This document shows positions 45,894 through 53,638 of a stretch of DNA of 64,000 nt, one piece after another. The DNA is from Magnolia sinica. Taxonomy: Eukaryota > Streptophyta > Magnoliopsida > Magnoliales > Magnoliaceae. A program made the position numbers and the translations under genes. Below the pieces are notes generated by a model. It was not told the DNA's origin, ran no database searches, and saw nothing but the letters and a program-made list of their open reading frames with translations. The stretch lies in contig NC_080575.1 of assembly GCF_029962835.1 (NCBI RefSeq), positions 42,818,336-42,882,335 of the forward strand. The letters run 5' to 3'. Positions within the stretch are counted from its first letter, which is position 1. Each line of letters starts with the position of its first letter.

Positions 45894-48180
45894 GAGTGTG
45901 ATCCTCTGTTTCGTGGAAACAGCAATCAGGGTCCATGTCACTGTAAGTGCCACGTCACCGGCTTTTTTTAATATATTAAAAAAATTACATTTTAGGAAAA
46001 GTCTAACGCCGTTAAACGGTGTTGTTTGGAAATCGGATTGCATACCGAGTACAGTACGACTATTGCTCTTACCGTACTGAGGAAACTCAGTTGGGCCCAC
46101 CTTGTATGTATGTGGTCTATCCATGCTGTCCATCCGTTTTTCCATCTAATTTAAGGGTTTGATCCCAAAATTGAAGTATATCCAAATATCAAGTGGATCA
46201 TACCACAGTAAACAGTGAGGATAATGATTTCCACCGTTGAAACCTTGCTAGGCCCCACAGTGATGTTTATTTGTCATCCAACCTGTTCATAAGATCATAC
46301 AGTCATGGATGAAGAGAAAACACAAATATAAACTTGATCCAAAACTTTTGTAGCCCCTAAAAAATTTTCAATGGTAAACGTTTAATTCAACTGTTTCTTA
46401 TGGTGTGGTCCATTTGAAGATTTTAAATATTTCATTTTTGGTCATAAAACTAAAAGTATCTGTTAAAATTGATGGACGGATCGGATGACATACATAAGTC
46501 ATAGTGGACCCGACAGAGTTTACTCAGTACGCGAACGCTGTGAGTTACTACGCAATCCGCTTCCTCCCATCCGGTGATTCAGCGCACGGCTTGAGTAGCG
46601 AGACTCGCTACCAAAGTTACGTCACCAAGTTATGTGGGTCCCACTATGATGTATGTTTTGTATCCACACCGTCCATCCATTTGGAAAGATCATTTTAGGG
46701 TATGATCCATAGAATGAATCAGATCCAAAACTCGAGTGGACCCCACCACAGGTAACAGTGGAGAGAAGTCACACCCACCATTAAAAACTTCTAAGGGTTA
46801 CAAAAGTTTTCGATCAAGCTGATATTTGTCTTTTCCCTTCTTTAATGTCTGTGTTAACTTATGAACAGGTTGGATCTCAAATAAAAATCACGGTAGACCT
46901 TAGGAAGGCTTCAACTGTGGACATAACTCTCCTCACTGTTTTAAGTGGAGGAGTCCACTCCAGCTTTGGATTTGCCTCATTCTTTTGATCATGCCTTAAA
47001 ATGATCTCTCCAAATGGATGGACAGTGTGGATACAACACATACATCATGGTGGGCCCCACATAAATTGGTGACGTCACTTGAGTCCAACTACTCAACCTC
47101 CTGTTGGTAGCTAATCCGCATCCAATTTCTTTCTTTTAAAATTTAATTAGGTCACATTATCTCATAGCAATTTTATAAGATAAAAAAATATTAACAAAAT
47201 TTGCCTGATTAGGAAGGAATATTAGCTGCTAATCTTCTAATTACCAATGTTTCTTGTGGTGTGGTCCACCTGAGATATGAATCTTCCTCAATTTTGTGCT
47301 TATGAACTACAATGATCTGTAAAAATGGATGGACGGTGTGGATAAAATACATACATCATGGTAGAGCCAATAGAGCTTTTCCAATAACACACAGTACTGC
47401 AGTTGGTGGTATATGCTAGTGTCCCCTTTGTCAAAGCCACTGGTATGAGCAAATAATCAGTGGATTAGGTGGGATATACTGTGATGTTTTCTAAAAAATC
47501 AACCTAGACCACAAGGTGTGTCACTCCATTTTAGGCCACAGGCCGATAAAATCAATTTTATCTATAATTCAGGTTGACCATATGATTGTAAACAGTGTAT
47601 AGGCAATCCTCGCTTTACAAATTGTTTCCATTAGTCTAGCCCAAGTGATTCATGTATCGATATGATTTTTGGTAAAATGCTTTTTTTTTTCTTTCTTTTT
47701 TTCTTTTTAAATAATCTAGTTGTTGAAGTAGATTTTGATGTAAGTATAATATTTGACCCTTTAAAATAAAGGGTGGACATCTCTCTCCCAACTATTTCCT
47801 TTAGTGCGTATCTCTAGGCTTAATATGAGACTTAATAGCCAATAGTTATAATGGATATTACATAAACATCATAATGGGCCCCGGAAAAATCAAGAGTCAC
47901 GCCCCATACAAATATTATATATATATATATATATATATATATATAAACTCTCTTTACAATTGGAGAAGTTTGGGGGATTGAATTTTTGGCTATGTATAAA
48001 ATCCACTCTGACAATTAGATGCGTAATCATTTAGGCCTAAATCCAAAAAGAAAAAAGAAAAAAGGTTAACACGAGATTCATGTGAGCCACACCAAAGAAA
48101 ATATATATTTGGAAGAGAAACGTACCCTTGAAACTTATAGGACTTACTATGATGATTATATAAAATGGATACATTAGTTT
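45894..48180 (+). repeat. Left arm of the giant inverted repeat
   Basis: Aligns in inverse orientation with 49830-53629. It carries two GTGGG(T/C)CCCAC.ATGATGTATG blocks (about 46630 and 47045-47070, the latter inverted) and ends inward with the (AT) tract 47915-47945 and the segment 47946-48180. Confidence 0.8.
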
Positions 48181-49829
48181 ATCTAATGGAACCTTATCAC
48201 TTTGTCAAATGAACCCGTTACTTTGTCTATTGAAACCTCGTCATTTTATTTGACAAGCCGCCACTTTATCTAGTGAAATCCTATCACTTTGCGGAATAAT
48301 ATCGTCACTTTGTCTAGTGGAATCAAGTCACTTTATTCGAAAACTTGTAATTTTATCAAGTAAAACCCTATCAATCTATCTGGCAACTCAATCACTTTAT
48401 CTAGTGAAACATCGTCACTTTGTCTAATGGAACCCTATTATTTTGACCAATAATCACATATGTAGCACCCTGGTTCCCGAAACCCAAGTACACTACTCGT
48501 TTTCCAAAAACCCGAGTGTTAACTTTTAAAAATAGTCCAAATTTCATGTACATTTTTTTTCTTTATTAGAATTAGCAATTTAGTGGAATAGAAACAAATT
48601 AAGTATAAGAGTGAGTCTAAATATACATAACAAAATAATTGAGTGGCTACCCGAAGGCTTATACAAACCAATGTCTTAAGTTTTTAGAATACAAGACAGT
48701 AAAAATTAAATACAAATGAAATCAAGAATAGAGAGTCATAAAATCATCTAGCTCCTCCTATTCCACGTGAACACTAACATTCTCATCATCTGCGTCTCCT
48801 GCACACTAAATATGATTTAATAGCGTCAATGGCTATCCCAGTGAGGTACAACCCCCAACATATACTAAACATCAAAATAATTAAGCATAGTTTACAGGAA
48901 CAATATATAATGAATAGTTTTCATGGTAATAAGACAATTCAACATGGGCCTTAAATCATGTGTGGCCACCGACAATATATATCATCCATTGTCGATAATT
49001 TTTTCTTAGTCATTAGACAAAGTGACGGGGTTCATTGGACAAAGTGACGGGGTTATTAGACGAAGTGACAAAATTATACTAAACAAAGTGACGAGGTTGC
49101 TCGACAAAGCAACATGATTCCACTAAACAAATTAATAAGGTTAAACGAGATAAAGCAAATAGGGTTCCATTAGACAAAGTTACAGATTGTCGAAAAAAGT
49201 GATGGGTTGCCGGACAAAGTGATCTGGTTTTACTAAACGAAGTGATAAGGCTGGAAGACAAAGTGATGAGGTTACTGGACAAAGTAACGAGATTGTTGGA
49301 CGAAGTGACGAGGTTCACTAGACAAAGTGATTGGGTTGCTGGACAAAGTGATGAGGTTCTACTAGAAAAAGAGACTGTAGTAAGATAAAGTGACAAAGTT
49401 CTACTGTATCAAGTGACGTGGTTCTATAGAGAGTGACGAGGTTGCTGGACAAAATGACAAGGTTTCACTAGATAAAGTGAAAGTCGTGCTAGACAAAGTG
49501 ATAAGGTTCTAGTAGACAAAGTGACATGATTATTGGACAAAGTAAGGAGGTTCCATTAGACAAAGTAACGATGTTCCACTAGATAAAGTGATGGGGTTGC
49601 CAGACAAATTGATAGGGTTTTTCTTGATAAAATGACGAGTTTTCAAATAAAGTGACTTGGTTCCACTAGAAAAAGTGATGATATTACTGTGCAAAGTGAC
49701 AGGATTTCACTAGATAAAGTAGTGACTTGTCAAATAAAATGACGGGGTTTCAATAGACAAAGTGACAAGTTTATTTGACAAAGTGATAGGGTTCTATTAA
49801 ACAAAATGATGGGGTTCCATTAGATAAAC
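48181..49829. repeat. Core: oppositely oriented ~21-bp minisatellites around a short spacer
   Basis: 48181-48450 contains about 12 units of the type CACTTTGTCTAGTGAAACC. 49010-49829 contains about 38 units in the opposite orientation (GACAAAGTGACGGGGTTCC and variants). The spacer 48451-49009 is unique in this window. It begins with phrases like GGTTCCCGAAACCCAAGTAC and includes CCAGTGAGGTACAACCCCC (48838), and I cannot assign it to a family. The reading frames in the minisatellite (for example 49079-49396, minus) are repeat artefacts. Confidence 0.8.
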
Positions 49830-50077
49830 TAATGTGTCCATTTTATATAATCATCATGGTGGGTCCTATAAATTTCAAGGGTGAATGTCCCTCTTCTAAA
49901 TATTTTCTTTGGTGTGGCTCATATGAATCTTGTGTTAACCTAATTTTTTTGGATTCAGGCCTAAATGATTACGCATCTAATTGTCAGAGTGGATTTTACA
50001 CACATCATGGTGGGCCCCTGCAAAAAATTCAATCCCCCATACTTCTCCAATTGTAAAGAGAGTTTATATATATATAT

Positions 50078-51945: not shown

Positions 51946-52317
51946 CAGCTAATATTTCTTGATAATCAAGCAGATTTTGTAAATATTTTTTTTATGTTAT
52001 AAAATTACTGTGAAATGACATGGCCTAATTAAATTTTAGAAGAAAGAAATTGGAGGTGGATTAGCTACCAACACGTTGAGTAGCTAGACTTGCCGTTGAA
52101 GTGATGCCACCAAGTTTTGTGGGGCCCACCATGATGTATGTGTTGTATCCACACCGTCCATCCATTTGGAGAGATCATTTTAGGGCATGATCAAAAGAAT
52201 GAGGTAGATCCAAAGTTGGGGTGAACCCCATCATAGAAATTAGTGAGGAGAGTGACGTCCACCGTCGAAGCCTTCCTAAGGTCCAGTGTGATTTTTATTT
52301 GAGATCTAACCTGTTCA

Positions 52318-52919
52318 TAAGTTAACACAGATATTAAAGGAGCAGAAACACAAATATCAGCTTGATCGAAAACTTTTGTGGCCCTTAGAAGTTTTTAATG
52401 GTAAGCGTACTCTCTTCATTGTTTTCTGTGGTAGGGTCCACTCGAGTTTTAGATCTGATTCATTCTTTGGCTCATGCCCTAAAATGATCTCTTTAAATGG
52501 ATGGATAGTGTGGATACAAAACATACATCATGGTGGGACCGACATAACAACTGACGTCACTTTAGTAGCTAGTCTCACTACTCAACCTGTGTGCTGAATC
52601 CCCGGATGAAAACTTAAATAAAAATCAAGGTGGACCTTAAGTTAACACAGACATTGAAGAAAGGAAAACACAAATATCAGCTTGATTGAAAACTTTTGTG
52701 ACACTTAGAAGTTTTTAATGGTGGGCATGACTCCCTCCACTGTTTTCTGCGTTGGGGTCCACTCGAGTTTTGGATCTGATTCATTCTATGGCTCATGCCC
52801 TAAAATGATATCTCCAAATGGATTGACGGTGTGGATACAAAACATACATCATGGTGGGACCCACATAACTAGGTGACGTAACTTTGGTAGCGAGTCTCGC
52901 TACTCACGCCGTGCGCTGA
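52318..52919. repeat. ~300-bp tandem duplication in the right arm
   Basis: 52318-52617 and 52636-52919 both run AAGTTAACACAGA(T/C)ATT to a GTGTGCTGAATCC / GTGCGCTGAATCC end. The left arm has one copy. Confidence 0.8.
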
Positions 52920-53638
52920 ATCCGCAAATGGAAGGAAGCGGATTGCGTGGTAACTCACTAAGCTAGGTACCGAGTAAACTATGTGGGGTCCATCATGATT
53001 TATGTATTTTATCTGCTCCGTCCATCAATTTTAGTAGATACATTTAGGGCTTGAGACCAAAGATGAAGCATATACAATGTTCAAATGGACCACACCATAG
53101 GAAACAGTTGAATTGAACATTTACCGTTCAAAATTTCTTGGGGGCTACAAAAGTTTTGGATCAAGCTTATATTTGTGTTTTCTCTTCATCCATGCCTGTA
53201 TGATCTTATGAACAAGTTGGATGACGAATAAACATCACTGTGGGGCCTAGCAAGGTTTCAACGGTGGAAATCATTATCCCCACTATTTACTGTGGTATGA
53301 TCCACTTGATATTTGGATATACTTCAAGTTTGGGCTCAACCCCTTAAATTAGATGGAAAAACGGATGGACGGCCTGGATAGACCACATACATACAAAGGT
53401 CGGCCCAACTGATTTTGCTCAGCACGGTAAGAGCAAGAGCGTCCTGTAATCGGTATGCAAACCGATTTCCAAACGAAACCGTTAGACGGTAAGACTTTTC
53501 CTGAAATGTAATTTTTTTTAATACATTAAAAAATCTGGTGATGTGGCACTTACAGTGACGTGGACCAATAATAATATTAATATTGGATTCAGCTGCTCGC
53601 TGTTTCCACGAAACAGAGGATCCGCACTCGACAAGATT

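Follow-up and report, generated by a model that had tools for sequence, protein, structure and literature searches.

The question raised by this locus is whether the inverted repeat found in the window (the whole 64,000-nucleotide stretch of Magnolia sinica DNA analysed here) is a mobile element, a host hairpin locus, or the product of a local duplication or of misassembly.

Structure of the inverted repeat

Positions 45894-53629 form a single inverted-repeat element of 7,736 bp, with two long mirror-image arms making up nearly its whole length. The outer ends given in the earlier note, 45894 (GAGTGTGATCC...) and 53629 (reverse complement GAGTGCGGATCC...), proved to be exact. Its description of halves that are reverse complements over more than 2 kb of arm was borne out by a gapped self-comparison, which resolved the pairing into four collinear inverted blocks of 82-89% identity and not into short scattered matches. 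The best block scored 1,204 bits, against a maximum of 41 bits in 50 order-1 Markov sequences matched in composition to the element. The blocks are:

Block 1: 45930-46861 with 52638-53566, 935 columns, 89.2%
Block 2: 46568-47229 with 51945-52608, 670 columns, 85.1%
Block 3: 47230-47945 with 50677-51373, 720 columns, 86.3%
Block 4: 47933-48456 with 49527-50077, 564 columns, 81.9%

The following features were delimited, with the strand in brackets where one is assigned:

45894-53629: whole element, non-autonomous and foldback-type, very probably MULE by family-level duplications; delimited by terminus pattern, collinear arms and exact bounds
45894-48456 (plus): left arm (terminal inverted repeat), 2.56 kb
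49527-53629 (minus): right arm, 4.1 kb including a duplication and a nested insertion
45894-45923 (plus): left terminus, a variant of the family motif GAGTGCGGATCCTCTGTTTCGTGGAAACAG
53600-53629 (minus): right terminus, an exact copy of the family motif GAGTGCGGATCCTCTGTTTCGTGGAAACAG
46090-46521: palindromic GGGCCCACC...-type module of the left arm (self-inverted over 46090-47060, 70%), outline read from the sequence
46614-47080: second palindromic module of the left arm, self-inverted, 73%
47912-47945: AT microsatellite, left arm
48172-48456 (plus): left minisatellite inner arm, repeat families D14 and I3
48457-49009 (plus): loop common to the family, matched to its end at 27 places including the window
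48461-48923 (plus): TG...CA-bounded repeat within the loop, elsewhere also found without the remaining loop
49010-49833 (minus): right minisatellite inner arm, longer than the left and opposite in orientation
50078-50622: nested inverted-repeat insertion with ends of about 92 bp, repeat I21
51374-51944 (minus): right-arm stretch without counterpart in the window's left arm, mostly present in the left arms of L010 and L012
52318-52884 (minus): segment in two copies 321 bp apart, a mark of right-type arms
45885-45893: left flank, candidate 9-bp target-site duplication GACAAAAAA
53630-53638: right flank, candidate 9-bp target-site duplication GACAAGATT
55396-63958 (minus): neighbouring Methyltransf_29 (PF03141) gene, exons seen at 63332-63958, 56482-56823 and 55396-55737

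As the earlier note had described, an AT microsatellite lies in both arms (in the right one at 50671-50711), and the oppositely oriented minisatellite inner arms are present, with units of about 21-22 bp. The arms are unequal: the right arm carries the tandem duplication, the nested insertion of about 0.5 kb and the longer minisatellite, and the left arm lacks about 570 bp that the right arm has. Both hold weaker palindromic modules of their own (about 70%). As in FB-type elements, arms built from modules and tandem repeats make up most of the element.

A dispersed family in the genome

A 30-bp terminus pattern was found at 149 places in the 1.84-Gb genome with up to 3 mismatches, and its reversed control at none. 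The full loop was present at 27 of 40 scored places, the window included, and the 13 others matched the loop query only up to positions 405-481 of its 556 bp. The TG...CA-bounded repeat in the loop looks like a captured solo LTR; no 5-bp duplication was seen beside it. The nested insertion is missing at the same place in L009, L010, L020 and L024 and is thus younger than the element. Arm length differs among copies, as in FB-type elements, with derivatives of 852 bp, 2.2 kb and 2.4 kb alongside copies of about 8 kb, and an arm asymmetry like that in the window recurs in the full copies L010 and L021. Two larger copies, L011 and L016, carry gypsy-type gag or integrase pieces, that is, nested retrotransposons; nothing in the partly fetched interiors of the larger copies points to autonomous elements.

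The earlier reading, one foldback-like transposable element whose inner arms are minisatellites, is therefore upheld, and further copies exist in the genome. Local inverted duplication or assembly fold-back, with no mobile element involved, can in general yield long inverted repeats, but we give it virtually no credence here. The arms are only 82-89% identical and differ by independent indels, and an element with common ends and a common loop occurs at many places on many contigs, which refutes a local duplication as the origin of the window copy. The recurrence of the same architecture across the genome likewise excludes the assembly artefact against which the earlier note had asked for a check.

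Target-site duplications and insertion site

Over 28 end pairs, flank identity peaked at a length of 9 bp (mean 0.472 for true pairs versus 0.277 for mispaired ones). A match of 8/9 or 9/9 was seen in five of the 28 pairs and in none of 756 mispaired controls, and a match of at least 6/9 in 11 of the 28, as against 2.7% of mispaired ends. The five best pairs include a 28.7-kb copy on C15, with a 9/9 match, and a poly-T site, which is hence little informative; for two pairs a length of 10 bp (8/10) gives a better fit than 9. The remaining 17 of the 28 are without a duplication (5/9 or fewer), as could be accounted for by decay, by wrong pairing or by recombination. In the window copy the two flanks match at 6/9, which is ambiguous by itself, and it is at the level of the family that duplications in the 9-11-bp range of MULEs are found.

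A dispersed repeat forms the end of the left flank (45600-45893). The left-flank query has 39 other matches, and 38 of these reach to within 4 bases of the query end; this alone proves nothing, since the query itself ends at the junction. With a query crossing the junction, however, homology stopped at 45891-45893 in all eight fetched relatives of the flanking repeat, and the left boundary is thus real. In none of the eight relatives compared is the repeat broken at the left junction picked up again on the right-hand side; with the two flanks joined as one query, homology did not extend into right-flank sequence, and no empty site for the window copy was shown. The right flank consists of short repeats pieced together in a patchwork.

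Coding content and classification

Protein-coding content was rejected: 10 of the 20 stop-free segments of at least 60 aa were scanned, and they gave only weak Pfam matches below the cut-off. An RNA family was also rejected, with no Rfam match at the gathering threshold over 45500-54000. MULE transposase domains are plentiful in the genome (150 scored above the cut-off, being the best 150 of 1,104 candidates), and a search with seven MULE proteins from this genome found no MULE transposase remnant either in the window or across 30 fetched loci. When 148 MULE-domain hits from these best 150 were compared with 99 of the 149 termini, no autonomous partner bearing the family termini was found, and the nearest hit lay 67 kb from any of these termini.

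The long terminal inverted repeats (TIRs) with a conserved terminus are a MULE trait and, together with the 9-bp duplications, place the family among non-autonomous Mutator-like (MULE/foldback) elements; 45894-53629 is very probably an old, decayed copy of a foldback-type member. P and hAT elements leave target-site duplications of 7-8 bp. The peak at 9 bp, together with the richness of the genome in MULE domains among those best-scoring candidates, makes it unlikely that this is a foldback-type element of another superfamily (e.g. P/Galileo-like or hAT), with equal anatomy and another transposase, even though the transposase of the family was not found in the comparisons above and foldback structure is polyphyletic, Galileo being described with a P-type transposase (PMC3169594). 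The earlier note had regarded the size and the missing transposase as unusual; neither trait sets the element apart, for it is one of many copies in a non-autonomous family whose 9-bp duplications are those expected of Mutator-like/foldback elements.

For this MULE family we envisage that a MULE transposase encoded at another genomic site would bind the ends and move the whole hairpin-shaped unit as its passenger. Read-through transcripts of the element could fold into long dsRNA, the family may subsequently have been methylated and silenced, and after silencing the arms would have drifted apart.

Comparison with known foldback elements

Foldback MULEs are already known, and the element described here is a new, unusually large example. 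The family combines defined ends, composite inverted arms of very great length, a common loop, many dispersed copies and, in part of its members, 9-bp duplications. The FARE elements of Arabidopsis were reportedly described by Windsor and Waddell in 2000. As far as the cited sections describe them, they are plant foldbacks that end in long palindromes and are counted among the MULEs, and we liken them to our element by description; FARE is reported with a MULE-domain transposase, and none was found in the element here (PMC3169594, PMC4486113). Plant MULEs with long TIRs, tandem-TIR MULEs among them (Ferguson and Jiang 2012, PMC3310237), share the long inverted ends, the 9-11-bp duplications, the non-autonomous members and the extra internal TIR copies. 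Typical MULE TIRs are given there as 100-500 bp, whereas the arms here (2.6 kb left, 4.1 kb right) have a composite build and account for most of the element.

The Tm1 Mutator/Foldback elements of root-knot nematodes are alike in their composite, internally repetitive TIRs of variable length, their 9-bp duplications and their short and long members, but belong to another kingdom and include members with a putative transposase (PMC3169594). Tetris, a foldback of Drosophila virilis, is described with long tandem-repeat TIRs, a non-coding middle and few complete copies, although its TIRs reach at most 1,735 bp, with repeats of about 220 bp, as opposed to longer arms and repeats of about 21 bp here (PMC4079207). 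MuTAnT of Medicago is likewise a foldback-structured MULE with 9-nt duplications where visible, but measures about 0.2-1.6 kb and inserts into TA microsatellites (PMC4486113).

Arm history and the predicted hairpin

None of 930 columns in the outer arms is side-specific, and, as judged from the aligned copies, the outer arms are shown to have been practically identical at the time of family amplification. A tree of 30 arms was star-like, with no left/right split; four weak hits (67-69%) of the arm-internal palindrome and the loci L001, L002, L007 and L028, duplicates of others, were left out of the arm set. The left/right labels required 8 changes on the tree versus 10 for shuffled labels, and as few were reached in 58 and 67 of 500 shuffles, so that no clear clustering by side is apparent. 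In the middle block, 5 of 354 columns were side-specific (larger arm set). The statement that the duplication occurs only in right arms is partly circular, since the labels rest largely on the duplication itself; an independent check, loop orientation, agreed at all six loci where both were seen (the window, L009, L010, L012, L020 and L021).

Transition rates per site were 0.151 at CG, 0.114 at CHG, 0.045 at CHH and 0.022 at A/T, and this CG/CHG excess suggests past methylation. Transversions are raised at C and G sites too (0.051 at CG versus 0.017 at A/T), and part of the transition excess therefore need not be deamination. The ratio of transitions to transversions in the outer arm block is unusually low (55:53 versus 160:64 for the three inner blocks). 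In the two outer arms of the window, CG and CHG transitions are below the family mean; the counts are too small to carry weight, and the search is biased towards the query copy.

A transcript of the element is predicted to form a long hairpin: the modelled fold of the strand reaches -4383 kcal/mol, compared with -1870 and -1986 for two nearby stretches of equal length, and pairs 2,347 of 2,569 left-arm bases with the right arm. In addition, the Methyltransf_29 gene has its coding end about 1.76 kb from the element and is transcribed towards it, the geometry proposed for maize Mu killer (PMC3440606). In the cited sections, Mu killer is likewise an inverted MULE-derived sequence beside a gene, from which read-through could give a hairpin; it is, however, a transposase gene in rearranged form and exerts its silencing in trans, whereas the element here has no coding match. 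These features, together with a difference of 0.100 between the window's own arms, at the low end of the range, favour a host hairpin locus under selection for siRNAs, a natural silencer like Mu killer. Nevertheless, outer arms within one element differ by 0.100, 0.115, 0.133 and 0.162, about as much as arms of different elements do (mean 0.120-0.135), so that no consistent constraint on pairing is evident, and the family is dispersed and decayed; we consider such a locus very unlikely.

Within the MULE reading, we put forward only tentatively, as a rather doubtful idea, that at the stage of near-identical arms new gene-adjacent copies gave read-through dsRNA by which the family may have silenced itself and its autonomous partner genome-wide, ending its own burst as a many-copy natural Mu killer.

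Implications

For annotators, the element is a caution that an inverted repeat several kilobases long need be neither an artefact nor a regulatory locus and can be an ordinary transposon of the non-autonomous kind. For the biology of the family, multi-kilobase, internally modular arms amplified as one unit amount to a clean natural experiment: the arms examined diverged in a radiation from ancestors that were nearly identical, which means that the initial state of each hairpin copy is known, and decay, methylation scars and siRNA output would be comparable among copies.

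Structure of the inverted-repeat element

The 7,736-bp stretch at 45894–53629 forms one inverted-repeat unit. In a self-comparison, four collinear inverted blocks were found with 82–89% identity between the halves. The top block scored 1,204 bits, whereas 50 order-1 Markov sequences matched in composition did not exceed 41 bits, which bears out the earlier note's claim of a single inverted-repeat element. The AT microsatellite and ~21-bp repeats that it described are likewise present in each arm.

Layers of the element, from the outside inwards
Arm layer 1 (outermost): outer part of ~200 bp
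Arm layer 2: GGGCCCACC-type modules, each a weak palindrome
Arm layer 3: middle stretch
Arm layer 4: AT microsatellite
Arm layer 5 (innermost): minisatellite of ~21–22 bp
Loop: ~550 bp between the arms

Nested insertion aside, two features make the right arm longer than the left: a tandem duplication, whose copies lie 321 bp apart, and a more extended minisatellite. Some 570 bp are missing from the left arm; the left arms of two other family loci, L010 and L012, retain most of this stretch. Three further features of the window were recorded:

797–3000: another minisatellite, of ~21 bp but different sequence (GCGGGGCAAAC...), in two arrays adjoining modules related to the GGGCCCACC-type block (79–86% identity); probably a second, related composite element
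14108–16488, minus strand: broken open frames, read by eye as a copia-type retrotransposon with reverse transcriptase and integrase stretches
35295–36269, plus strand: intact 324-aa open frame, a putative manganese-dependent ADP-ribose/CDP-alcohol diphosphatase

Copies across the genome

The family is dispersed through the genome (1.84 Gb, 127 contigs; window at C3:42818336–42882335). With up to 3 mismatches allowed, 149 occurrences of the 30-bp terminus GAGTGCGGATCCTCTGTTTCGTGGAAACAG were counted, against 0 for the reversed control. Matches to the outer 1 kb numbered 163 when 40 of 17,333 first-look candidates were scored; for the outer 213 bp, scoring 40 of 399 candidates gave 41. In 27 of 40 scored places, window included, the match to the loop extends through to the end; together with the 149 termini, these places supply the other copies that the earlier note had proposed to look for. 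The other 13 match no further than the first ~400–480 bp; this part is a TG...CA repeat that also occurs without the remaining loop and resembles a captured solo LTR.

Two other fetched loci, L010 (8.0 kb) and L021 (7.8 kb), carry full copies comparable in size to the window's. The family also has shorter derivatives, of 852 bp, 2.2 kb and 2.4 kb, and two larger copies with nested retrotransposon genes. The insertion at 50078–50622 is absent from the matching place in L009, L010, L020 and L024, and therefore landed after the family had spread. At L021 (C13:12424840–12434740), the segment that other right arms carry twice is present in three copies. At L012 (C13:28520600–28530500), the left arm and its flank are repeated 3.7 kb apart; 34 bases outside the terminus are identical, and the outer arms differ by 6.6%. 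By eye, the 852-bp derivative L069 (C8:9879400–9880370) carries another terminus-like sequence immediately beyond its right end, resembling tandem-TIR MULEs (Mutator-like elements with tandem terminal inverted repeats).

Target-site duplications and mobilization

The bases outside the termini were compared for 28 facing-orientation end pairs, the window's included and poorly aligned ends kept in the count. Among lengths of 3 to 12 bp, 9 bp stood out most, with a mean flank identity of 0.472 versus 0.277 for mispaired ends. Identity of at least 6/9 was seen in 11 pairs (2.7% of mispaired ends), and 8/9 or 9/9 in five (0 of 756 mispaired); 10 bp fitted two further pairs (8/10), and 17 of the 28 showed no duplication (at most 5/9). 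The clearest cases are a 28.7-kb copy on C15 with TATAAAATT on both sides, copies on C6 and C4 and, on C1, L010; the fifth, L021, lies in a poly-T site and is hence barely informative.

The window copy's own flanks, GACAAAAAA and GACAAGATT, agree at 6/9, which is not telling by itself. Its left boundary is nevertheless supported, since the element interrupts a dispersed repeat (45822–45893, ending ...ATATATGACAAAAA) and homology to a junction-crossing query ends at 45891–45893 in all eight fetched relatives of that repeat. Downstream, several of these relatives have more sequence in common that the element's right flank lacks. As the repeat does not resume there, joining the flanks yielded no empty site.

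A Pfam scan of 10 of the element's 20 stop-free segments of at least 60 aa returned matches below cut-off or none, and the element appears to encode nothing recognisable. Searches with seven MULE transposases from the same genome, which do find each other, detected no MULE transposase remnant either in the window or among 30 fetched loci (of which some overlap and two are the window). The genome holds at least 150 MULE-domain matches; among the best candidates scored, none of 148 lay less than 67 kb from any of 99 family termini. Long TIRs, typically 100–500 bp, and 9–11-bp duplications are given as marks of MULEs in PMC3310237. The 9-bp duplications and the anatomy suggest that a MULE transposase moves the element in trans.

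Foldback-structured MULE-type elements are described in passages on Medicago (PMC4486113) and on Arabidopsis and nematodes (PMC3169594), and the Drosophila foldback element Tetris is credited with TIRs of up to 1,735 bp and internal tandem repeats (PMC4079207). The Magnolia arms are longer than those reported in these passages, although the kind is the same. The earlier interpretation holds for a foldback-type mobile element with many copies, whereas large size without a transposase does not single it out. No earlier description turned up in searches of open-licence papers, and the family is a new, large member of an already known kind.

History of the arms

A tree of 30 outer arms (13 left-type, 17 right-type; four weak hits left out) was star-like and showed no left–right separation. 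Side-diagnostic columns numbered 0 of 930 in the outer arms and 5 of 354 in the middle block. The tree and the near-lack of diagnostic columns indicate that the founder, its outer arms effectively identical, spread as a whole hairpin unit. Left–right divergence of the outer arms within four elements is 0.100 (window), 0.115, 0.133 and 0.162, compared with 0.120–0.135 on average between arms of different elements; the window lies at the low end and 0.162 is above the mean, and these comparisons give no consistent sign that selection or conversion kept the arms pairing.

Per-site transition rates were 0.151 at CG, 0.114 at CHG, 0.045 at CHH and 0.022 at A/T; such a pattern is typical of plant transposons that have been methylated. 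Transversions were also raised at C and G sites, to a lesser degree. The transition/transversion ratio was ~1 (55:53) between the outer arms (45888–46861 and 52638–53635), in contrast to 2.5 (160:64) in the inner blocks. At plant rates of 1.5e-9 to 7e-9 substitutions per site and year, the arm divergence would correspond, very roughly, to 8–50 million years.

Hairpin potential and the neighbouring gene

The predicted fold of an element transcript (45888–53635) reaches -4383 kcal/mol, versus -1870 and -1986 kcal/mol for two equally long stretches nearby, with 2,347 of 2,569 left-arm bases pairing with the right arm. One gene runs towards the element:

55396–55737, minus strand: last coding exon of a Methyltransf_29 gene, ~1.76 kb from the element

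This layout is reminiscent of the read-through proposed for maize Mu killer (PMC3440606). By this analogy and the predicted fold, the element may possibly give rise to hairpin RNA and siRNA, the source that the earlier note had envisaged.
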